Shown here piece after piece: positions 1-62,559 of a stretch of 64,000 nucleotides of DNA. The first letter of the stretch is position 1. Each line of letters starts with the position of its first letter. The notes under the pieces were generated by a model. That model worked only from the letters and a program-made list of their open reading frames with translations. It ran no database searches and was not told where the DNA came from. This DNA is from Tubulanus polymorphus (lineage: Eukaryota > Nemertea > Palaeonemertea > Tubulaniformes > Tubulanidae). The DNA lies in the NCBI RefSeq assembly GCF_964204645.1, contig NC_134029.1, positions 8,794,850 to 8,858,849 on the forward strand. Direction: 5' to 3'. The position numbers were made by a program, and so were the translations under genes.

Positions 1-275
1 TGTGATGAGGCGGTTGCGTTGGGACTACTTCGTGGATGAGATCGGCGATTTCCTGGCGTAAACCGGTCACGATTTCTCGTTTCAGGTACTCCAGTTCGGT
101 CTGCGTGAGAAACGTACCGGACGTCGACGTGGGCATCGTATTTCCGATCTCGCTAGGCGGCGCCGGTCCCTGCATGTTGCTAGAGCGCAGATTTCGTAAA
201 ATGTCCCTCTTCAGATTGTCAAGGTGACCCGTAGCGCGTGCTGCCTCGCGCTTCCTGTCCTCCCTTAATTCGTAC
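1..275 (-). CDS. TRPC: TRPC exon E8: C-terminal coiled-coil region, partial
   Basis: The exon begins after the acceptor tgcag at 276-280 and stays open to position 1. Its first base completes the Arg codon left by E7, giving SSLRYELRED, a highly conserved TRPC C-terminal stretch. It encodes residues 818 to 909 of the E4a isoform. A proline/serine/threonine-rich linker (residues around 849-868) precedes a predicted amphipathic helix, TELEYLKREIVTGLRQEI, which fits the tetramerising coiled coil of the family. No stop codon or donor site is visible, so the true end lies left of the window. The reading is secure because both phase and protein context match the previous exon. Confidence 0.9.
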
Positions 276-810: not shown

Positions 811-926
811 CTTAAACTGGATATATCCTGTTTAATTTCCAGTAGATCGTCTTCATTGACGCCATCTTGTCGCAACTGTTTCTTCGTCTGGTGTATGTAC
901 CTGCTCACAAGGCGTCGCATTACCTC
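811..926 (-). CDS. TRPC: TRPC exon E7: EVMRRLVSRYI segment
   Basis: The exon has 116 bp, from acceptor tttaaag to donor AAG|GTACCG. It encodes EVMRRLVSRYIHQTKKQ and then VNEDDLLEIKQDISSLR (residues 780-817). This stretch is diagnostic of TRPC C-termini. The region overlaps the calmodulin/IP3-receptor binding site described for the family; its role here is inferred from the family. It starts in phase 0 and ends in phase 2, which matches E8. Joined to E6 it restores the conserved motif YQEVM, so the E6-E7 junction is also well supported. Confidence 0.93.
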
Positions 927-1633: not shown

Positions 1634-1792
1634 CTGATATATTTGTCGTTCGTTTTCTTTCGCTTGCTCGGCCAGGTCTGAGTTCGGTGAGTTATTCGCC
1701 TGAGTCAGGTTGATCGCGCCGCGCGCTGCTGGTTGACTTTGTTGCGGATGCACAACGTGTCCATGGTGACTATCGCCATTGTAAGTTGGTCT
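1634..1792 (-). CDS. TRPC: TRPC exon E6: low-complexity cytoplasmic linker, possible cassette
   Basis: The exon has 159 bp, with acceptor ttgttacag and donor CAG|GTAAAA. It encodes 53 residues (727-779) beginning RPTYNGDSHHGHVVHPQQSQ and ending KENERQIYQ. The final YQ joined to EVM of E7 gives the TRPC motif YQEVM, so the exon belongs to the gene. The middle is rich in Q, N, A and H and looks disordered. TRPC3/6/7 proteins also have a variable linker here. Both ends are in phase 0 and the length is a multiple of three, so the exon could be skipped without breaking the frame. Whether it is skipped cannot be seen. Confidence 0.85.
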
Positions 1793-2515: not shown

Positions 2516-4442
2516 TAGTCTATACCCAGCTACGCAAAAAAATACCGACCAGTGACCGATCATCAGTACTTTCAAATCACATCCATAATAAATTGAACTA
2601 AAATAAACCACCAAGTTTAACTAAGTGTCGAGACCAGGGTTCACGGTTCCTCAGGTTAAACTGAACAGCGTCGTGTTGTTTAAACGGTTGCGTTTCAGAA
2701 CTGACGAATCTTTTCGATAAGAATCTGTATCAAAAGTTTTTTGTTCTTCACACATCATTGGACTACGTAATTTTCGAAGGGGTAAACCCGAAGTTAGACG
2801 TCCATCTGGTGGAAATATATCGAAAGCGTTGAAGATAATACATATACGAAATATTTGGTGATATACAGATTATAGAAGATATCTGTTTGATACCGCATTG
2901 AACAGTTCAACGTGATATGACGGTGCAACACAGGTAACAAGCAAAACACAATATCATATAATGCAAACAAAAATATACAATAATTCAGCTATTAGAACAG
3001 ATCGTTTTTGTAGAAGTATCATCATTATCAATAGCTGCTTAAATATGCTATGCATGCCTCGCGTCAATGTGGTTTTAGGTTCATTTTCGGAGCAAAGCTC
3101 GCTAGGCATAGAATAGTTGGTTATCTAGATTCGGTGTTAATTAATTGATTCGCGTTTCAAGCCAATCGGAATGAATAGAACGTCTCGTTGTACACGCATA
3201 CAACAAAGTGTTTATCTAATGTATATGCGGATAATATCCGAGTTCAATCGGAGAGCAAAAGACTCTTTGATAGGGATGGTGATTTGCCGTGAGGAACGAC
3301 TTCAGAACATTTCTACAGAAAGGTGATAAAAGTAATACACGGAGAAAGTTTTTGAGGCTGGTGGCTATTTTCAATTTATTGACAAAGACAACGAGTCCCA
3401 CACCTCTATATCAAAAATGACGACGAACATACAAATCTTTGCTGGAATGTAAATAGTCATAGCATAGCTAGAAAGCAATTCATGTACAATAAGAGCTTAG
3501 TAGTTTCATAAAGGGGAGGGGAAGATAATCGATATAACACAGTAACGTTACCGAACCGAAACCAGTCCCTGTCTTCATATCAGCTTGGAGTACTCAGTCT
3601 GATTACTCCAGGATATGAGTGAATGAATGGAAGTGTAACCTGGATGACACGTCCATGTTCCTGATCACCTTCTCAGTGAAAGAGTGACAGGGAGACACTG
3701 CCATCATCGTGATCTTCACTCCCGAATACGGAATAAAAGAATACAAGTGATAAGCGTATGTCGGCGGTGTCTTTTATAGAATTAGACAGATGGAATAGAA
3801 GTTGCGTATATCTTGTTGAAACAAAAAGAAATATCAATAGCGTTAAGCCCAAACCGAACAGCAATCTGCCACGACGTTAGATAGAGAAAAATAGCATCCG
3901 CAATGTGTTAGAGAAGCGAGAAAGTAGTGCAAAATATAAATATATACATCTATTACCTGGATCTCTACATCTTTACAATTCGTTATCCCATCAGCTGTGT
4001 TCGCCTAAACATAGTTTAAATTGTTCACGTTTACCATTTAAATTTAATTTATTACAGTTTCCAAATAACACCCCGATCAATTCAGTAAATCCGCGCCAGG
4101 ACTCGAACCCAAACCTAGGATATAACGTGATGGTTAGAGTGAAAACGAGATTGTCGTCTGTTTGGCCAATTATTCCCAAATGACAGTTACGATATCAAAG
4201 ATAAATAATTAGCTGTCACCGTTGTTTTCTGGCAATTGTGAAAACGTACCACACGTTTACGGCAAAACCTTGCATATATTTGCACACTACCATGAAAACA
4301 AACAGCTTCATTCGTCAAAATCTATGATCTGGTTACACCATCACGAAAATGGAAATCAACGTGCGCGGGAAATGTTAAATGTTTTGCTAAGATAGTGAAA
4401 CTTTCGATAGATCGCTCGGATCAAAGTAAACAGAGGCAAGTT

Positions 4443-4540
4443 TAATAGACTGTTTATCTTAAACCCGGGGTTAACTCCTTCATTTTCAATCGAGTTAACC
4501 CCAGGTTAAAGTTGATTAGACAGTCTATAATACCAGTCCA
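4443..4540. repeat. Hairpin repeat, family HP, copy 1
   Basis: Inverted repeat with arms centred on ccggggttaactc and gagttaaccccagg around the spacer cattttcaat. Outer arms tagactgtt and gacagtcta extend the stem. A related hairpin lies at 9367-9445 and a half copy at 7262-7285, all in introns of the same gene. Confidence 0.75.
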
Positions 4541-4848: not shown

Positions 4849-5619
4849 TGTGTTGGTATAGCAGCGTAAGGAGGATAAATTTCGTAAGAAAAAATTGTGT
4901 AGGAATAAAATCGATTTCACTGCTGGTCGTTCATATGTATTGTGTATTATCATCGGATGAAAAATACAATGCTCATATATACATATGGATCTGTAAGATT
5001 TATAATTTGATAATTTATAGTATTGTGATTGATAGCGATCCAAAATACTCGAAGATATCAAGGAAGAATAATCATATGAAATCTGAAATAGATAATTAAC
5101 GATTAACATTTTCTATATAGTCAATCTATAAAGTAACGACACGGTACAACAATCCCACGTACATGCAAACATGCTTCTATCATATATAATTTTGTCCTCG
5201 ACTATAGGTTAATATTTCTGAGTATATCTCATCGCAAGGTATACGTTGCCAAATATTGTTGCATTTGCAGCATGCTAAGTGCAGAATAGTGTTATCATGA
5301 AGTTATCATATTTGGAATAGATGTATAGAATATGCGCTTCGTGCAGAATCTTAGCCGTCCGTCCGTGGAACTGTCGAAGAATGTTTTCTAATTTGTTTTT
5401 TCCGGAATATTCACGACGAATAGGAAACGATTTAGAATATATACAAGTATTACATATAACATATTTGTTAATCAATATTACGGTATACACGTATTTAGGT
5501 AAATTAATCGTTCTCGATGTATTTCCAAATACACATGTACGTTCGAATATCCCGAGGGTAGAGTTATATTTTTTGTTATGAATATTCCGGATTATGGTCT
5601 TACTATGGCCGCATTTTAC
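4849..5619 (-). other. TRPC intron E4c-E5
   Basis: GT-AG intron of 771 bp, very AT-rich. It is the shortest intron in the alternative cluster and still far above any minimum length. No repeat recognised. Confidence 0.8.
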
Positions 5620-5812
5620 CTCGATCGCCTGGAACGAATCGCTCATCATGGCGATTAGCATATTAGTAAGGACCGTGATACCGATCACGTGGTATGAGCC
5701 GAGTAACAACTGGCCAACCGTTTTAACGTACACTGATTCGCTAATATCTAAACTGCTTAGATGAGTAATACCGAATATTGACCAGAACAGCTGTAGAAAT
5801 GTGGAGTCTAAT
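5620..5812 (-). CDS. TRPC: TRPC alternative exon E4c: pore loop and S6, short-turret form
   Basis: The exon has 193 bp, with acceptor ctctttacag and donor GAG|GTAAAA. It encodes LDSTFLQLFWSIFGITHLSS, a short outer loop, and the S6 segment ending NMLIAMMSDSFQAIE. The LFW(S)IFG motif is the TRPC pore helix/filter region and NMLIAMM is the S6 gate region. Start phase 2 and end phase 0 equal those of E4a and E4b. From LFW to the final Glu there are 57 residues, close to vertebrate TRPC3/6/7 length, against 65 and 66 in E4a and E4b. Roughly half the residues match E4a by eye, so the duplication is old. The frame is intact with no stop, which argues for a working exon. Confidence 0.93.
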
Positions 5813-7811
5813 CTGTAAAGAGAATTTTAAGCTTACGTACTACACACACAGAAAGCCCAAGACGACAAGTACATACACAATGTTTGGTGCATATCCTCGC
5901 TGACCAATGTTTATCTCGGTCTGATGTTTCGTATGAACACTATAATGGTCACGCAACTATGTGCTTTTGTCAACCCGTGATGACGTCATTTGTCATCCCG
6001 CGATGACGTCATATCGCTGCCAAACACACTGTCAGAGTAATTTCATCAGATCTATACGGAATTTCTAAATCCCTAATGATGACGTCACATACAGCAGTGA
6101 TCTGATGTTGTGCAAGAGCCGTTTATTTTGACCCCTACTATGGTTATCACGTGACAAGAGCACATGGCAGAACAACCGACTTATTTTGAAGATAATATCG
6201 AAATTTCAACCATGGTCGAACGAGGTAAGCAAAAAACAAGCTGGGACCGAAACCTGCCAAACAATCGGAAAGCCTGATTGAGTGAGTTATGTAATGAATG
6301 TCGAGACAAATTTCGTCTCGGGGTTATTCTATACAGATTATCGTGAGGACCCTATAGTTGTGGCGTGGCCACATTGAGAAACCATGGCGTTAACTGAAAA
6401 AGATTTGAAATATATGTTCCCTGTAGATAAGGCTTGTACCTATCCGTGAAACGAGGCATTATGAATTATAGACATCATCACATAACAGGTCGTCCAGCAT
6501 CGCGTTGCATGTCGAATGAAATGCCTTCTCTTTCGATAACTCATCAATCAGACAGAGTACGTAAAATCATTCATTCACCGAGAAAAGTCAATGACATCGA
6601 AACAAGTATATATACATATCTAGACACCGCCTAGGGCTAGGAAGCGAGTGTTATATCACCATCAAGCTACATAAAACAACAGGAGGGTAAACGTTCTTTT
6701 AAAGGCACTTAATCGTTCGTTATAGCCGGGGTATTTCAAAAACGATAATATCGTCAATTGTTGGAGCTAGAATGTTATAAGTATACGTGTGACCTCTCGT
6801 ATTGAAAACAAAGTTAATGAAGCCTATTGATGACGCTGCAATGTTTCTGTTGTAGTCACTCTATACGCGAACAAAATTGTGAAACACGTTTTGAGGGGAT
6901 AAAGCTGGGCATTGATACACTTACGTTGTTGCTCGCAAGCAAGCGATCTCAAGGGGTTAACTTCCGAATGTAGCAAATGAAATCGGCTAATCCTATAAAA
7001 GAATATATTGCTGCGACGGTGTACTATAGCTTTTTCAAAAAATATCCCCCAGAAACAGCGCTATCGGGAACCGAGTGAACCACGAGAGCAGAAAGTTTTA
7101 GAATCAACATTACGGTAGACCTATCATTGATTTACTTCCTATTCTGACGAAAAACATTGTTTCTATAGGCGATTCATTTGAAATGTGCAACTCATGCTGC
7201 TTCGGTTATCAACATAACGGAGAAGGAGTAAACAGTGTGCATGCATTTTACGGATAGACAGAGAGTTAACCCCCGGGTAAGATAGCTATTTGAATAATTA
7301 TTTTGTGTACATTTTCTCTTCCTTTAAAGAAAATGTCTCTAAAGTCATTAAGGAGACACTGTGGATAGATAGATAGATAGAGAAAGAGAGGGCCGATTAT
7401 ATTTTTGTAAATTGGCTTAGAGAGTTCGGACGGGCGACTTTTGATAGGACACCTTGCGGGTAACAACATCTTTAGAATATGCATCGGCGCCCTTGCCTGC
7501 CAGAAAGTAAGACGCAGAAGTACTCCGGTGTGCAAAACGGATATTCAAATCATACCTTACATACAAATGAGGAAACTGGCAGGCGAGGAGGCAAATCTAC
7601 GTCTAAGATATAATATGCCAATATAGTATATTGATTATCGACCTTCAATCCAGGAATCCCATCAGTGTAGCTAATGAAACTTTTAACCAGGAACTTTTTT
7701 CAGAAAAAAATAGGCCATGACGAACACATCTGGTGAAGATCGATAGAACCTACATCTACCATAGAATATAAACGTGTAATATCGCTCAGTTTTAGATGTG
7801 TTGCTATATAC
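5813..7811 (-). other. TRPC intron E4b-E4c
   Basis: GT-AG intron of 1999 bp. It contains a cluster of three perfect CRE octamers (5981-6087), a half hairpin of family HP near 7262-7285 and a short GATA run (7361-7380). The rest is unannotated AT-rich sequence. Confidence 0.8.
5981..6087. promoter_or_regulatory. Three CRE-type TGACGTCA octamers
   Basis: Perfect palindromic TGACGTCA octamers stand at 5981-5988, 6004-6011 and 6080-6087. The first two share the longer context gatgacgtcat. A given octamer is expected about once per 65 kb of random sequence. The motif is the binding site of CREB/ATF bZIP factors; a regulatory role here is inference. Another reading is a fragment of an unrecognised repeat. 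Confidence 0.4.
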
Positions 7812-8031
7812 CTCTATGGTTTGGAAGGAATTTGACATCATAGCTATTAACATATTTATGAGGACGATGATGGTCATTCCGTGATACAGTATGAACATAA
7901 GCTCCCCGATGAATTCCGGGAATTTTCCGTACGACGACGGGTATTTGTTTGGGTTGTTGTTGATCTTCACTTCCGAGCGATGGGCCAAACCAAACAGTGC
8001 CCAAAATAAAGTATGGAAACTCGATGTCAGT
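7812..8031 (-). CDS. TRPC: TRPC alternative exon E4b: pore loop and S6, long-turret form
   Basis: The exon has 220 bp, with acceptor tatttatacag and donor GAG|GTATAT. It encodes LTSSFHTLFWALFGLAHRSE, a polar Asn/Pro/Ser-rich outer loop, and the S6 stretch ending NMLIAMMSNSFQTIE. About 43 of 72 residues match E4a by eye, with the difference concentrated in the loop between filter and S6. Phase 2 in and phase 0 out allow it to replace E4a or E4c exactly. The split codon with E3 reads Glu here and Asp in E4a. The frame is intact. Confidence 0.94.
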
Positions 8032-9028
8032 CTGTATAAATACAAAGAAGGTTGCGGTGTTTACATATATATAATATAGAATATATGAAAAATGGGTGGT
8101 TAGTGTGTGGGTCAATGGCTAGCGTCGAGCTTTCTATGTTATTTTGCTAGGCTTTGTCAGTCTCGAATGAGTTTGTCAAAAAGGATGGCTGATGAGGGTC
8201 GAACGAATATTGCCTGCATAATTAAATGACTGTACTATAAAGAGAATCCCACAATAATGACGAAAAAAGTCCGAAAATGTTTCCTTGAGCTAGTAGTTTA
8301 TACAACGTTTCGACTATAACCTTAAAGCCATCTTCAGGAATACTGGGTGTTTCTGAGCATCTGAAGATGACTATAGGTCATAGTCGCTTCGTTGAATAGA
8401 CTACTAGCCCAAGGAAACATATCTTCGGACTTCAATTTTTCGTCATTATTGTGTGCATCTCTTTAAAAATTATCGTCATAACACTGATATAGTGTAGTGT
8501 TTTATCAATCCTAAAAAAATGGTTGTACGTTTCTAAAAAAGAACGGTTCCGTCTGCCACGAATCAGCCACTCTATATTTGCTAGAGATTACCACTTTAAT
8601 CGCTGGGACAGAAAATACGAAAAGTCTCTATTTGAATTGCATGCTTAGATAGAAAATTGAACCCTGAATTTATCAATGTACCGTTCTAGAAAAACAAACA
8701 CGAGCGTTCGCAGTTTCCACGATTTAAAGTAAACACAAAAGCCCGACGTGCGTCACGTTATGTACAAGCGTTGATCGATGAAAGAAAAAAGTGCATGCAA
8801 TGTTCGGTTTATACTGAAAAACAACACTGACCGTCTCTGAAAATAATAATAAAAAGTACACATATAAGAGTCTGTTTCTGAGTCTGATTTTTGGGCGTCG
8901 AAATATCATAGAACGAACAAAACGAACTCGTTTTCAGAGCGTTGCACTTGTATGAATACATAATACACGAAAATACGCGTCACTCGCTGTGGATCCTAGC
9001 CCTATAGTGTCTGAACAGAGTAACATAC
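8032..9028 (-). other. TRPC intron E4a-E4b
   Basis: GT-AG intron of 997 bp. It contains one long inverted-repeat element (8238-8466). The rest is unremarkable. Confidence 0.8.
8238..8466. mobile_element. Long inverted-repeat element, IR class, copy 1
   Basis: The arms fold almost end to end: cacaataatgacgaaaa and aagtccga, tgtttccttg, gctagtagt on the left are mirrored on the right by cggactt, ccaaggaaaca, actactagc and cgtcattattgtg. The loop carries catcttcag and its inverse. The design resembles the elements at 14854-15082 and 29908-30040. No coding capacity. Confidence 0.75.
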
Positions 9029-9245
9029 CTCGATCGACTGAAATGAATTGGACATCATTGCTATCAACATGTTGAGCAGCACGATAATTGCCATACCGTG
9101 ATACACGATAAACAACGTTTCCCCGACCTTTTCCGGGAAATCGTAAACTTTCTGGTGCTGTGAGCGGTCCGGCGTGATATAAATATCTTTGCGCAGTCCC
9201 AGTCCAAACAGCGACCAGAACAGCGTCACGAAACTGGAATCCAAA
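9029..9245 (-). CDS. TRPC: TRPC alternative exon E4a: pore loop and S6, long-turret form
   Basis: The exon has 217 bp, with acceptor tgcatccacag and donor GAG|GTATGT. It encodes residues 582-654 of this isoform: LDSSFVTLFWSLFGLGLRKD, a charged outer loop (residues 600-622), then S6 ending NMLIAMMSNSFQSIE. E3 supplies the first two bases of the split codon (GA+T, Asp). It is the first of the three alternatives in transcript order. LFWSLFG and NMLIAMM place the pore helix, filter and gate. The loop is eight residues longer than in E4c. Confidence 0.95.
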
Positions 9246-9366: not shown

Positions 9367-9445
9367 AAACAGGGGGCTAAATCAATTCATTTTCAATTGA
9401 GTTAGCCCCTGGGTTAAAGTTATTACCAGTCTATGAAACCGGAAC
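9367..9445. repeat. Hairpin repeat, family HP, copy 2
   Basis: Arms agggggctaaatcaat and attgagttagcccct surround tcattttca. They are followed by ctgggttaaagtt and agtctat, as in the copy at 4443-4540. Confidence 0.7.
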
Positions 9446-12077: not shown

Positions 12078-12519
12078 TCGACGAAACTTGAGTCGGTTGA
12101 GCTGACGTAGTAGAAATACAGTTGGTTTAATCCACAGGCGAAAGACGTCAAAACAAGGAAAAATATCAACAGAAACTTGATAATGTCGATGAGCATGCAA
12201 CCTAACGATATTTGCAGTGGACCCAAATGTGGATTCGCTTGGAACAGGTAGATAATCCGCGCGAAGCTGAACACGTTCGCTACGGCGAACAGACCCTCGG
12301 AGATGATCGTCGGGTCCATGTCGGGCCATTCGGATCGGGGCATCTCTCCGCGTCCGAAATCTGCATCCATGTAGTGAAGTTGTATGTAGGCTACGATCCG
12401 CAACGAGAACGTACATAAATAGAGCGATAACATGATAAAATCCATCCAGTTCCACCACTGTCTGATGTACGCTCGCAGGCCTTCTTCCCATAGTTGTTTC
12501 ACTTCGGCCCACACAAAAC
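12078..12519 (-). CDS. TRPC: TRPC exon E3: S2 end to S5
   Basis: The exon has 442 bp; acceptor ccttttgaag completes the Gly codon begun by E2 (WVLGFVWAEV). It encodes residues 435-581. Predicted helices are S3 around 459-479 ([20 protein letters not shown]), S4 around 505-527 ([20 protein letters not shown]) and S5 around 538-566, ending [12 protein letters not shown]. The segment LGPLQISLG is the conserved TRPC S4-S5 linker. The donor is GA|GTAAGT, leaving phase 2, which each E4 exon accepts. The S5-pore linker is very short, as in TRPC3/6/7. Confidence 0.96.
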
Positions 12520-13263: not shown

Positions 13264-13618
13264 CTAGCACCCATAAGACAATAAGCCACTCTAACGCATT
13301 GGGCCACGGTCCTCTTATTTTAGAGCGAGCTTGGATATCTCCGTTTTTTACGGCCACGGTGGTTGACATCAATAACAACAACACTAAGAACACGGCAAAC
13401 GACGCACTATGGTACATAAACTTCATGAATGGACTTCGCAGAAGTTGGCCTACGCGACTTCTTGGAACGGTAAGATATATCAATACTAGAAATGGTAATA
13501 TACACGGCAGTCCGATACATATGGCTACTTTCATCACGGTGTTACGAGTTCTCCAGCCAGGCAAACCTTCGTACCAGATCGACGTTAAAAGCTGTTGACA
13601 GTGCGGGTGAGCTACAAA
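13264..13618 (-). CDS. TRPC: TRPC exon E2: pre-S1, S1 and start of S2
   Basis: The exon has 355 bp and encodes residues 317-434. The acceptor is ctcgttag; a second AG five bases into the exon was rejected because only the first one keeps frame and restores the conserved FVAHPHCQQLL. It continues IWYEGLPGWR, a pre-S1 hydrophobic helix (about 347-366) and S1 (about 384-404, FMKFMYHSASFAVFLVLLLL). S2 begins at EWLIVLWVLG. The donor TAG|GTAAGT splits the Gly codon of WVLG and joins E3. Confidence 0.96.
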
Positions 13619-18195: not shown

Positions 18196-19143
18196 CTGTT
18201 TTTGTTCATATTTCAAAGCCAATTTCAGGCGTGCCAACGTCAACTTATCGGTATCACCATCTTCCTCGTCGTCGTCCTCGTCATCTGACTTGTCGAGAAC
18301 GGCTATAACCTCTTCGCTGCTGCGACACTGATCCAAAAGATCGCACGCGTACTTTTTACACGATTCGGCGAGTTCCGTGTACGTATCTTTGAATTCGTTT
18401 TCTTTCATCGCCAAGCGCTGGAGTTCCCAGGATAGTCTGAAAGCGGTGAGGATAGGGTCGGCGCTTGTCAGCGAGATCCACGCCGGACTGGCCAAAGCCC
18501 TGAACGTGTGGATGCGCAGCAGCGAATGTCGCAAACTGTCCTCATTCACCTGGTCCAAGCAGCGTTGGCAGGCGCACGACAAAGTGTGCGGATTTTCTAT
18601 CTTCGCCCCGCGAGAAAGGAGAAGTTGCAATATTTCGAATTGGTTACAAGTGGCGGCTAGAATAACCGGCGAGATATCCGGGGAATATTCGTTACTTTGC
18701 TCGGATAGCGGTTTGGATTTCGACCATTCGAACCCTAACATTCCTCGACTTATACTGGGGTGGTCAATCAACATCTCAACGATTCTATACACGCCTTCTC
18801 GTATGGCGTACAAAATGGCGTCGCCAATTTTAACACCCTCTTGTTTGAGTAACAGTTCGACGATTTCTGTATTTTCATTATCGACGGCGATTTGTATGGC
18901 AGACCGGCCGAGTATATTTGTACAGTTGACATTGACGGGACTCGGGCCTTGTAAACACCTGATCATCGTGTGCTTGTCTCCCTTCTCTGCAGCCTCCAGG
19001 AAAAGCCGCTCGTGCGGATCCATCCTGTGGCCTTCTTTCAACGGTTCCAACGGAATGGGAACTGCCCGTCCCGAGCTTTTAGAGCTTGAACGCATTGGGC
19101 GATTTCTTTTGCTCCCGCGGAAGTCAGGAGCTAGATTATCCAT
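18196..19143 (-). CDS. TRPC: TRPC exon E1: N-terminus, ankyrin repeats, TRP_2 region
   Basis: Encodes residues 1-316. The ATG at 19143 sits in GCCACCATGG, an ideal Kozak context. Upstream 5' UTR sequence reaches a likely acceptor, ttttgtag, at 19190. Ankyrin repeats span about 43-200 (ERLFLEAAEKGD, GRSAIQIAVDNENTEIVELL, SPVILAATCNQFEILQLLL). H186, C190, C192 and C195 form the H-x3-C-x-C-x2-C zinc-type motif of TRPC channels. SLRHS, ALASPAW and SWELQRLA continue into the TRP_2 region. An acidic run at 287-299 precedes LARLKLALKYEQKQ and the donor CAG|GTACGT. The residues up to 40 are basic, serine-rich and poorly conserved. Confidence 0.97.
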
Positions 19144-28307: not shown

Positions 28308-29804
28308 TTAGTATTCCCACAGAGTGCTTTTGTCGACTTTATCCGCGCAAGCGCTGAACAATCCATTCTGTTCGCCTTTGATGTATTTTTCATTTCCTGC
28401 TTTGATGGCGAATCTCGCTTGCTCGTGGAACTCCAAACTGAACGGAACCGCGGTCGGACTGTTTGCCAATATCGCTCCGTCATCGGATGCCGCTAAATAT
28501 TTCCCGTTCGATGCTCGTATCGCGTACTTTCCTCCTTCCACATGCTCCAAATGGAAAACGTCAAAGTCGCCTCGGTTGCATTCGATCTTGTCGCTATCCG
28601 AACTTTTGAAACCCACGAAGCCGAATTCACTTTTCAACACTAGAATCGGTCGATTCAACAGTACGACGACGAAACGTTCCTTTTCGGTCGGATCGGTTAC
28701 GTTAGCTGTAAGATGTCCGGTCATTTTAGCCGTTACGAACTTTCCATTGGACCCCTTCAAACCAACCGTACTGGATGAATCGTTGTTCCAAACGAATTCG
28801 AACAGCGTCTCTGGACTTTCGCTCGAACCAGCGGCTTGGACTCCACCGCCTTCGGAGACAATCCAGAATTTGTCATCGCACGTACGCACTCTCCATTTCT
28901 TCTCGGTTTTGACATACTCTAGCTGAAATATTTCCTTTTCGCTTATATCATCCTGATTAGCGCTTATGTCAATGCCTTGCTTTACAGATGCTCGGCGTCC
29001 GTTATGCGCAATCAACGTGATTTGTGGGCGACTTTTTTCGATTGTGAATAATTCATCTTTGCCGATTGTCTTCGCTTTGCCGCTCAGCGTTCCAGTACTG
29101 CCGCTTGCACCGGATAGATATGTGCCGTTGACGTCTTTCAACGCGAAACTTCCATAAACTTGCGCGGACGGATTCAGTTCCATCGTGAAAAAAACCTTAT
29201 CGTCAAGTTTGTCGACTAATTTACCGGAGCAATCGAGGTATCTGTCATCGGCTACGCGTAATGCGTATTTGCCGTCTTTGAATTCAAGAGTTACTAATGT
29301 ATCGTCACCCCATGGCGTCACTTTGGTGCAGTGGATTTCCCCGACATTTTGCACAAGGTGTGCGTACCTTTTACGGTTTACATTACGGAGGTTGATTTGA
29401 GGATGTACGGCTAACTTTGGCATCCAATATTCGGGTGTTTTACTTTTACAATTCAATGCATCGCCTGTTCCAACAAAATAGTCGTTGTACTTAACACTTT
29501 TCAACGCCCATCCGGGTCCATTTGCATCGTATTCTATGTGGAACTTAGCCTCTTCTTCCATTTCTTCGGCATCGCCGCGTATAGCACCGCATTTGTCAGC
29601 GGCAACGTAACGGCCAATGTGACTTTTCAAATACACTACTCCATCTGATCCTTCGCCGTAAACCAAAGTCCAAACCTGTTTCTTGCGGAGCGATGTTGCC
29701 GAGGCATTTATCTGATATCCAAAGGTTTCGGCGGTCAGAAACTTTTTGTCTGAATTCATAAAACCCAACTGCCATTGAGTAAACCCCCCTTTCCCCTGGG
29801 CCAT
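28308..29804 (-). CDS. FSCN1: Fascin, actin-bundling protein, intronless coding region
   Basis: Encodes 498 residues in one exon. Fascin cross-links parallel actin filaments in filopodia and microvilli. Four beta-trefoil domains of about 120-130 residues follow each other, with repeated patterns such as GKYALRVADDRYLDC, NGTYLSGASG, NGKFVTAK and NGKYLAAS. Near-identical family motifs include FLTAETFG, KKQVWTL, RKRYAHL, GKDELFTIE, ISANQDD and the C-terminal SLWEY. Ser38 in NASATSLRKK matches the PKC site that switches off actin binding in vertebrate fascin. I chose the ATG at 29804: it has A at -3 and G at +4 and gives the usual length. An in-frame ATG at 29858 would add 18 unconserved residues in a weaker context. 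A short upstream exon may exist. Confidence 0.96.
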   Translation of the reverse strand: MAQGKGGFTQWQLGFMNSDKKFLTAETFGYQINASATSLRKKQVWTLVYGEGSDGVVYLKSHIGRYVAADKCGAIRGDAEEMEEEAKFHIEYDANGPGWALKSVKYNDYFVGTGDALNCKSKTPEYWMPKLAVHPQINLRNVNRKRYAHLVQNVGEIHCTKVTPWGDDTLVTLEFKDGKYALRVADDRYLDCSGKLVDKLDDKVFFTMELNPSAQVYGSFALKDVNGTYLSGASGSTGTLSGKAKTIGKDELFTIEKSRPQITLIAHNGRRASVKQGIDISANQDDISEKEIFQLEYVKTEKKWRVRTCDDKFWIVSEGGGVQAAGSSESPETLFEFVWNNDSSSTVGLKGSNGKFVTAKMTGHLTANVTDPTEKERFVVVLLNRPILVLKSEFGFVGFKSSDSDKIECNRGDFDVFHLEHVEGGKYAIRASNGKYLAASDDGAILANSPTAVPFSLEFHEQARFAIKAGNEKYIKGEQNGLFSACADKVDKSTLWEY

Positions 29805-30522
29805 GTTGCTGTTTCTTTCAGCAGCTGTGTATCTACCAACAATCAGTGTCGCTGTCATTGGTTGTTAAGGACAGGTGAACATCAACATAGACCCATCCAT
29901 TATTAGTTGATAAAACTGAAGAAGATACGTTTCGACTCTACGAGCCATTTCCAACTTTCTCAGTTTTTGAAAATGGCTCACAGAATTGAGTCAAAACGTC
30001 AGACTATACTTCAGTTTTTTTTTTCTTACAGTGGGTTTTATCAAAAAATTGACATTAATAGACAGTCACCTGCCTATGGACACCAAGATAGACCCATGAC
30101 CCCTACATGCGGATTCTCAATAACCCCTGTCAACATCAGCATTTGCTTTTTTGTGAGCATTGGTCTGATAAGAAATTAAACAATACAATAAAAACCAAAG
30201 TTAAACTCATGAAGAAATTGAAATCAATTGTTGTGAAAGATGAAAAATGATTACCTGCTGAGAGTCCCCCATTATGTCTATATCCTTGGTTAACACCAGA
30301 ATGAATGAATACGCATCGCGCGTGTAATAACGAAAACGTTGAACAGCCACGCAAACTGATGGCGAGGGAGTTGAGTTGCTCACTGGCTCATCAGATAGAA
30401 ACGGCTACAAATCAACCTCTCAGAATATGATGCGCGAATAACAAATCGTAGTGCCGTCCACATAGTTTCCGCAGTAGCGTCGACGTCTGTTTACTGTGAC
30501 ATTCGCGTCCGTTTGCGCCACC
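29805..30522. other. Fascin 5' region
   Basis: Contains an inverted-repeat element (29908-30040) and, on the minus strand, a donor-like CAGCAG|GTAATC at about 30253-30260 that could end a 5' non-coding exon. A short ATG frame just before that donor cannot be joined in phase to the fascin frame at any nearby AG. The part 30440-30520 is less AT-rich and may be promoter; no TATA box is evident. Confidence 0.4.
29908..30040. mobile_element. Inverted-repeat element, IR class, copy 3
   Basis: gataaaactgaag, acgtttcgactc and gagccattt are mirrored by aaatggctc, gagtcaaaacgt, cttcagtttt and ttttatc. The short loop is around ccaactttctc. Confidence 0.75.
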
Positions 30523-60285: not shown

Positions 60286-62559
60286 GCGTGGACTTAAGCT
60301 TTGTTCCGCATGAAAAGTCGTAAGCTTATGTAAAAGTTACTTCGTTATCTATTTAGTTTAGTTGGATATTTCTCAACGCTGAAGTATAATTCAATTTAAC
60401 CGAACAGACTCTTTACAAAATCGATACACCCTTTTCGGGTCGAGATGTACAAAGTGAAACATACAAACCTTAGAATTTAACATTAAAACAATTAAACGAT
60501 ACATATAAAAGAGTCACATCGTCATGATATTACTATCAAGATATAAACTGGAGACAATTATAAGCATATAAACATTGAAATACACCACCGAAAATCAATT
60601 ATAAACTCCATCAAGCGTTAGTCTCACTGTTTAAAATTTCAAAGCCTTATCATTTCCCAATTGAATCATGCAACCTGTTATCTATAAGCAAATTCTTGAA
60701 TTTTGTTTAGCTATCCCAATTTGAAGATTCTGGGTAGAAATTACAATGAACGTCTAAGTAATTGAACTAATTCCATACACATTATTGTTATTATGCAATA
60801 ACCTTCAAGCGTCACTATAAACGTCACCTCGCATTTCTGAACATCAACTTCTTGTGGCCATCCATTAATCTTAATTCATTCATTCACGGTGATTTTCTTT
60901 TCCTTTATCACCATAACCTCTCAAGACAAGTAACTAAGATAATTCCGCAACTTAACTTCTTCATTTTTGTTACTATTATGGTCACTGCTAGGCCCTCGTC
61001 GCCATCGCTCCTTCTTACGCTTTTACCCTTTAAAGTTTTAAATTATTTACGCAGGGGTTTGTCTTTATGTTGGCTTATTCGGGACAAAAGAATATTCTTT
61101 TCATCTTCCACGAAAACGCACAAAAACAAACTTTTAACCGTGAAAACAAATCATTTCGTTTTTGCACCATATCTTTTCAACGAATGTTTTTTTTCCGCAA
61201 AAACAAATTTAAGCAATCCTTCGGAATTTTTGAACCCCTGACGCGCTCATAATGTATGTATTTTTACTTCGTAATGAAATGTACCTTGTATTGTATCTAT
61301 TCGATGTGTTCGACATACAATTTGTAATCGTAAAATAAAAACCCGGAAGTAAAACAGTAGACGGTACCGCGGTTTCACGCTCTCTTGCATTTGTTTTGAA
61401 ACTGATTTGCGGTCAGATTTTTGCGAAAAAGCGCCAGCAAAGTAAAAACGTGGCCATTTTTTAAGTATTCAGCTACCTACGAATTGGAGAATGTATGAAA
61501 TCTTCATTTAATACGTGGTTTGTATTAGTATATGCTCAGTTTCTAAGTCCAAGGCCTTACATCTGGAAACCATAACATTTTAATTTGCTCCATTTTATGG
61601 GAAGCAATATCCTCAGTCTACGGCTGGTCTAAACAAATTATCATTCAAAATTGGATCAAATAAGAGTTGTTATTTCTATATATAGAAATTACGGGCTAAA
61701 TTGTTTCAAATTTTTTAAGATACAATCTGTTATGAAGTTCTGAATACATGAAATTGTGTAAAACCGCACACGATTAGCTAACCACTTTTGTGAGCGAGCG
61801 GCCTTGGGGTAAGTAAACGAACCACTCAAATTTACCGTTGTGTCCAGAATCTCGACCACTACGGTACAGTTCCCTGCGTGATTAGTCTTAAAAATAGGCC
61901 TGCTTCACGTCCAACATCCCGGTATACTTGACACACTTCGCCGTGTAGGCATGTATTCTTGAATAAAAACATGCGTTAAATGATAGCATCTGCAGGATTA
62001 ATCGTTTAATCAATTCATATTCTCTTAGCTGATTTATTAATGATAGTTGATAGAGTGTATCCTCTAAAATAGTTATAAGGCTTTGTTAGAGTGAAGGCTA
62101 TCATAGATATGAGAGTGTGCAATTTCTTTTCAATCCTCGCATTCTCACGGTAACGTTGGTATATATTATGTATCTTGACGATGCTAATATCGTCAATGAT
62201 TCGTCGGTATGCTGCCTTGACCTTTCCATGCGAAGTCATTTTGGAAGGTTAACAGTGTTATATTACTAATTTCTATCGAGTTAATGGTGGAGGAACGATT
62301 TAGAAACGCCGTTTGAATGTCGGCATCGGGCAGGTTGGAGCTGGCCATATAAATGTTAAACGTAGATCATAAACGTATCGCCTATCGAAGAATCTCCTCG
62401 CTAAAAGCCACTCGGTCCCTGTTCGTGGAATGGATTACCCTTATATTTACGTACCATCGATGCTAATGATACTTTTAAAGTTGGTCGTAAAACGTATCTA
62501 TTTACTCAATATTATTTAAACTAATGTTTTGAATCCTTATGGATTCGGTGTTTTAAATT
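60286..62559. other. Intergenic stretch, nothing recognised
   Basis: Only a short piece near 61330-61365 matches 55500-55545 inverted. No gene called. Confidence 0.5.

Follow-up and report, generated by a model that had tools for sequence, protein, structure and literature searches.

In several ion channels the pore is changed by splicing. The NALCN gene of invertebrates carries mutually exclusive exons 15a and 15b (or alternative versions of exon 31) that encode alternative selectivity filters, an arrangement found from flatworms to non-chordate deuterostomes (PMC3557258, PMC4436565). In the snail Cav3 T-type channel, the alternative exons 12a and 12b alter an extracellular pore region and ion selectivity (PMC4436565), and in TRPM3 long and short variants of the pore loop provide different pores from one TRP gene by splicing (PMC7959729). 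The present work concerns a TRPC gene on the minus strand of a DNA stretch of the nemertean Tubulanus polymorphus (contig NC_134029.1, positions 8,794,850 to 8,858,849; 64,000 nucleotides, called the window). Three tandem exons of this gene, E4a, E4b and E4c, each encode pore helix, selectivity filter and S6. It is very probable that splicing, made mutually exclusive by the reading frame, swaps the pore of this one channel among the three exons.

TRPL is a channel of the TRPC kind, and in Bactrocera its second and third exons are taken as N-terminal. These two exons are mutually exclusive (PMC6137742), as are exons 10a and 10b of Drosophila TrpA1 (PMC11471635), so that exclusive exon choice as such is familiar from TRP genes. 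In insects the exclusive exons lie outside the pore, as far as the available sources go (PMC11471635, PMC6137742, PMC7143563). The nemertean trio belongs to the same class of events as tandem duplicated exon substitutions, which a survey of human and fly describes as enriched in ion channels, old, and tissue specific; its main text contains no word starting with TRP (PMC9741552). A TRPC gene with alternative pore exons was not found in the literature on exclusive or duplicated exons of TRPC and other TRP genes, where coverage is thin for subscription papers and the evidence of absence is weak. The original prediction, which was made from the sequence of the window and knew of no TRPC gene with this layout, holds to that extent for TRPC; it does not extend to pore swapping in general, which is known in NALCN, Cav3 and the pore-loop variants of TRPM3.

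The locus differs from the described systems in several respects. NALCN is a four-domain channel, in which exon choice alters one of four filters (EEEE versus EKEE or EEKE; PMC3557258, PMC4436565). In the TRPC gene, by contrast, all four subunits of the tetramer could change, and the exchange takes in everything from pore helix to S6 and offers three options. A change at the narrowest filter residue, of the NALCN type, is absent, as glycine 577 is constant and its neighbours vary (residue positions are in TRPC4 numbering unless stated otherwise). The TRPM3 variants differ in loop length and belong to a TRPM channel, whereas the TRPC gene has three duplicated, complete pore/S6 exons.

The exons of the gene are as follows, in window coordinates and in the order of transcription:

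18196-19143, minus strand: E1, with start codon, ankyrin repeats and TRP_2 domain; leaves in phase 0 (gtacgt); placed by open reading frame, boundaries, and Pfam Ank_2 and TRP_2
13264-13618, minus strand: E2, pre-S1 and S1-S2 region; phase 0 in, phase 1 out; aligned to TRPC4/5 chains
12078-12519, minus strand: E3, S2-S5 (to the end of S5); phase 1 in, phase 2 out (gtaagt); aligned to TRPC4/5 chains
9029-9245, minus strand: E4a, pore exon variant a (pore helix, filter, S6), 217 nt; donor GTATGT
7812-8031, minus strand: E4b, pore exon variant b, 220 nt; donor GTATAT
5620-5812, minus strand: E4c, pore exon variant c, 193 nt, with a shorter outer loop; donor GTAAAA
4632-4847, minus strand: E5, TRP box, the common downstream exon; phase 0 in and out
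1634-1792, minus strand: E6, putative C-terminal linker exon (RPTYNGD...NERQIYQ); splice sites placed by eye
811-926, minus strand: E7, putative C-terminal exon (EVMRRLVSRYIH...EIKQDISSLR); splice sites placed by eye
1-275, minus strand: E8, putative last exon (YELREDRK...), with the stop about 90 bases beyond the window start; splice site placed by eye

The start codon of E1 is taken to be the first ATG in the open frame. The gene is intact through E5, and judged by its sequence it is a TRPC channel gene, probably of the TRPC4/5-like type, with predicted cation conduction. Isoform a matches Pfam Ank_2 (6.2e-12), TRP_2 (8.2e-27) and Ion_trans (1.1e-28). A 411-residue part of isoform c matches zebrafish TRPC4a with an E value of 7.4e-122 and TRPC4 and TRPC5 chains with E values of about 1e-121, and by score the TRPC4 and TRPC5 chains rank above TRP-gamma, TRPC6, TRPC3 and TRPC1. 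The gene has both the TRP box (EWKFAR) and the LFW pore motif, which is located at the pore helix (PMC7017149). In a tree of the sequence outside the pore exon, which held one vertebrate TRPC only, the gene groups with the paralogue L001 and zebrafish TRPC4a (support 94/98, just below the limit for a starred node).

The three pore exons lie between a single E3 upstream and a single E5 downstream. The original prediction had placed three tandem pore/S6 exons at 5620-9245, and they were indeed found there on the minus strand, with limits 9245-9029, 8031-7812 and 5812-5620. Its estimates by eye, about 43 of 72 residues shared by E4a and E4b and about half by E4a and E4c, agree with the alignment, which gives 43/72 and 32/64; E4b and E4c share 31/64. 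The intact frames, clean acceptors and equal phases that it described were confirmed as well: each exon is preceded by AG and followed by GT, and is entered in phase 2 and left in phase 0. When E4a was used as the query against the whole genome (268 Mb over 77 contigs), E4b was matched at E = 5.5e-21 and E4c at 6.4e-8. At these values the likeness of the three exons is not due to chance.

Of the 18 pore matches that the same query gave in the genome, three are those described here, 13 stand one each beside the 13 other TRP_2 matches above the cut-off, and the remaining two are elsewhere; TRP_2 itself had a fifteenth match, below the cut-off. Pore and TRP_2 matches were paired by nearness, and in one pair (L003) they are 12 kb apart. 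In tblastn searches with isoform a, the 13 paralogue stretches contained one pore region each, which in some of them was broken into two pieces. The match in L003 was limited to the S6 part, and the pore helix was located by motif; the L008 stretch has no E5-like match and may end too early. As weak genome matches may be missed, the uniqueness of the pore trio holds within those limits. Three closely similar TRPC genes among the paralogues (L007, L008 and L009) lie no more than about 130 kb apart on contig C11 and are a recent local gene duplication. A fourth pore copy was not found in the window by tblastn with 17 pore peptides and E values up to 10. The best other matches were 18-20 residues long (E 0.008 and 0.065) and lay outside the gene, with in-frame stops close by. 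The second of these, at 60952-61011 on the plus strand, consists of 20 residues that resemble the start of E4b; it is surrounded by stops, has no S6 nearby in frame, and is probably due to chance.

The paralogues also fix the exon limits. In all 13 paralogous pore exons, the LFW-like motif is preceded by an AG at -22, and a GT follows 8 codons past the NMLIAMM-like motif; E4a, E4b and E4c have the same outer limits. Each copy is thus a whole, correctly framed exon. Since five of the paralogues (L003, L007, L008, L009 and L013) apparently have an extra intron inside the pore exon, the conserved limits are the outer ones. The end of E3, TDSSFV (12078-12120), is echoed across the intron by the start of E4a, LDSSFV (9220-9245).

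Exon anatomy, phases and the outcome of every combination through E5 can be stated as observations. Because the pore exons are entered in phase 2 and left in phase 0, their lengths of 217, 220 and 193 nt are all 1 mod 3, and the frame needs the inclusion of a single one, a feature that was absent from the original prediction and is added here. On splicing in silico, each of the three single inclusions remains open through E5. A stop within the pore exons or E5 ends the frame in the five remaining cases, with no pore exon, ab, ac, bc or abc. As exactly one pore exon keeps the frame and the other combinations stop, the frame enforces mutually exclusive use; a protein with several pore exons is rejected for the same reason. 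The trio has the make-up of mutually exclusive tandem exons, being adjacent and homologous, with equal phases and with a frame break upon joint inclusion or skipping. Such a break is a frequent, not an obligatory, trait of this type of exon. A premature stop upstream of later exon junctions is expected to lead to nonsense-mediated decay, which would then be the fate of messages with no, two or three pore exons, since E6-E8 follow the premature stop. The frame of E4c stays open for about 115 codons past its donor (5275-5619; P about 0.007 from random starts in the window). This run may be an intron-retained tail, but chance is more likely, and the composition looks non-coding.

In the proposed scenario, the single ancestral pore exon of a TRPC4/5-like gene would have been duplicated twice, in tandem and inside the gene. 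A message with one pore exon would read on to E5-E8, and one with zero, two or three would run into a premature stop and decay. The gene would thus give rise to three subunits with identical ankyrin, S1-S5 and TRP-box parts; where they would differ is in the pore helix, in the residues immediately above the glycine of the filter, in the outer loop and in parts of S6.

The copies are old and have been kept, with purifying selection acting between all three. Across the three pairs, synonymous sites are saturated (pS 0.83, 0.85 and 0.88), versus pN values of 0.28, 0.32 and 0.37. Each copy has retained 14/14 of the near-invariant TRPC pore positions, a set defined by identity in 11 or more of 13 comparator rows. 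When neutral decay was simulated at a divergence of d = 1.0 per site, 1.5-2.9% of copies were without a stop, and protein identity to the start was 32-33% at the 99.9th percentile.

Several points weigh against exclusive splicing of all three exons. As the phase asymmetry of the pore exon is ancestral, exclusivity was automatic on duplication, and the frame provides a mechanism, not a proof of regulated splicing. Neutral decay simulated at d = 0.25 left 12-17% of copies open, with a median identity of 58%; a split that young does not fit, because the synonymous sites are saturated. The donors of E4b (GTATAT) and E4c (GTAAAA) are without the +5 G that is present in E1, E2, E3, E5, E4a and 12/13 paralogous pore exons, so that the clean donors of the original prediction apply in full to E4a (GTATGT) alone. 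A missing +5 G suits regulated exons that need help for recognition, or else exons that are weakening. Long complementary intron elements of the docking/selector kind, which form competing RNA structures as in Dscam, were not apparent, as the longest exact complements between introns were 9-12 nt and did not exceed those of 40 dinucleotide shuffles in six intron pairs (four introns, exact runs only). In the pore tree, E4a and E4b are joined (86/87, not starred) and E4c is unplaced. The E4 exons need two changes there, and with a one-clade p-AU of 0.158 a single origin is neither shown nor rejected; all three presumably arose within the gene. Finally, the use of all three exons is deduced from the genome sequence.

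The last point and the donors lend some weight to an alternative that we regard as unlikely, namely that a single pore exon is in regular use, the remaining pair being old duplicates on their way out or spliced in as mere noise. The three open frames, the intact acceptors and GT dinucleotides, pN values far below saturated pS, and the complete set of near-invariant positions in every copy argue against it, since neutral decay to saturation rarely leaves open frames or such protein identity, although a loss of use, if very recent, would escape this reasoning. It is also highly improbable that one or two of the copies act as poison exons, which would chiefly yield decaying double-inclusion or skipping transcripts and so tune the dose of the channel: all combinations beyond single inclusion do stop early, but pore and S6 residues have been kept, and a poison exon needs none of them. 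A misassembly or collapse that brought pore exons of different genes into one intron can practically be dismissed despite the 13 other TRP_2 matches in the genome, because E4a-c are close to none of the 11 aligned paralogues (31-48% identity), the longer repeats common to their surroundings are, apart from the exons themselves, dispersed elements, and the source contig (C5) is 24.9 Mb long.

We therefore return to mutually exclusive splicing of the three pore exons, and to how one of them might be chosen. Incompatible spliceosome types are rejected, as the introns from E1 to E5 are all GT-AG, and so is steric exclusion by a short intron, as the introns between the variants are 997 and 1999 nt long. 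A strong hairpin in the intron between E4a and E4b (8238-8465) was rejected as a selector. It is a dispersed, MITE-like foldback element with 99 genome matches among those listed (both strands and itself counted; of 1444 candidates from the first look, 40 were scored). At 4441-4531 lies the GAGTTAACCCC palindrome, which has relatives near pore exons at 7263-7280 and 9386-9425; it was likewise rejected as a shared regulatory element, being dispersed in the genome (55 matches among those listed, counting both strands and itself; of 84 candidates, 40 were scored). The default guess is regulation by splicing factors for the manner in which the splicing machinery would choose.

The pore exons appear more diverged than their flanks. 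Identity to zebrafish TRPC4a is 29/65 for E4a, 28/65 for E4b and 28/63 for E4c (43-45%), compared with 75/102 (about 74%) in the adjacent S4-S5 and E5 stretches (Fisher p = 0.0003, 0.0001 and 0.0003 for a, b and c). In the single-pore paralogue L001, the corresponding values are 39/65 and 73/102 (p = 0.13). The adjacent stretches were picked as well aligned after inspection of the alignment, and alignment columns are not independent, which adds to the points against our interpretation, as does the comparison with the whole aligned body outside the pore exon (169/298), where p rises to 0.099, 0.054 and 0.094 for a, b and c (L001: 39/65 versus 158/256, p = 0.89). Both comparisons point in the same direction. 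Since the low p-values come from the stretches chosen for their good alignment, faster divergence of the pore exons is a suggestion.

Among the three pores, the filter glycine 577 and the gate isoleucine 617 are unchanged. Position 580, just above the filter, is L/H/H (variants in the order a/b/c), and according to a paper on TRPC4 it matters for calcium permeability in TRPC5 (PMC5951680). TRPC5 E595 is a site for lanthanides and protons (PMC11362415), and the residues that align with it are D/K/V; zebrafish TRPC4a has K at this position, where the loop length varies and the alignment is less sure. For TRPC5 E598, a putative site for Englerin A (PMC7017149), the aligned residues are E/E/K, and position 622, near the gate, is N/N/D. 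The outer loop, from the filter to S6, comprises 25, 26 and 17 residues with net charges of +1, +2 and -1, so that the outer mouth differs in size and charge. Functional effects of these outer-mouth differences are predictions, and permeation, cation modulation or gating may differ between the subunits. Of the claim that one gene makes channels with different pores by alternative exon choice, the layout, the TRPC assignment, the selection and the frame arithmetic have stood; that the exons are spliced in as alternatives, and that selectivity differs, is what we infer.

A more tentative and on balance doubtful view is that the trio works as a pore cassette with three options, kept exclusive by the frame, and that selection has favoured differences between them, among these the changes in charge at the outer mouth. 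If this were true, co-expressed variants would mix in tetramers, and one receptor-operated channel would provide a graded set of pores, chosen by cell type, that could vary in ion preference, in modulation by lanthanides and protons or by calcium, and in gating.

Elsewhere in the window, a long uninterrupted fascin open reading frame is found on the minus strand at 28308-29864 (Pfam Fascin, 1.4e-69), and a short tandem repeat with a TAGTC-like unit at 2446-2515. In L014, a long simple repeat is found past the TRPC stop, and with it an open frame that by eye looks fibrinogen-like.

TRPC pores are hard to interpret: a structural study finds that selectivity among TRP channels has no clear determinant (PMC5951680). 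At the genome level the exon reading is well supported; how the three pores are used and what they do is predicted. Since the rest of the channel stays the same, the locus offers a natural domain swap, with three complete pore/S6 modules that have been under selection, and any difference in permeation or gating might be traced to few residues. The gene would also add TRPC tetramers to the four-domain channels in which splicing controls the identity of the pore.

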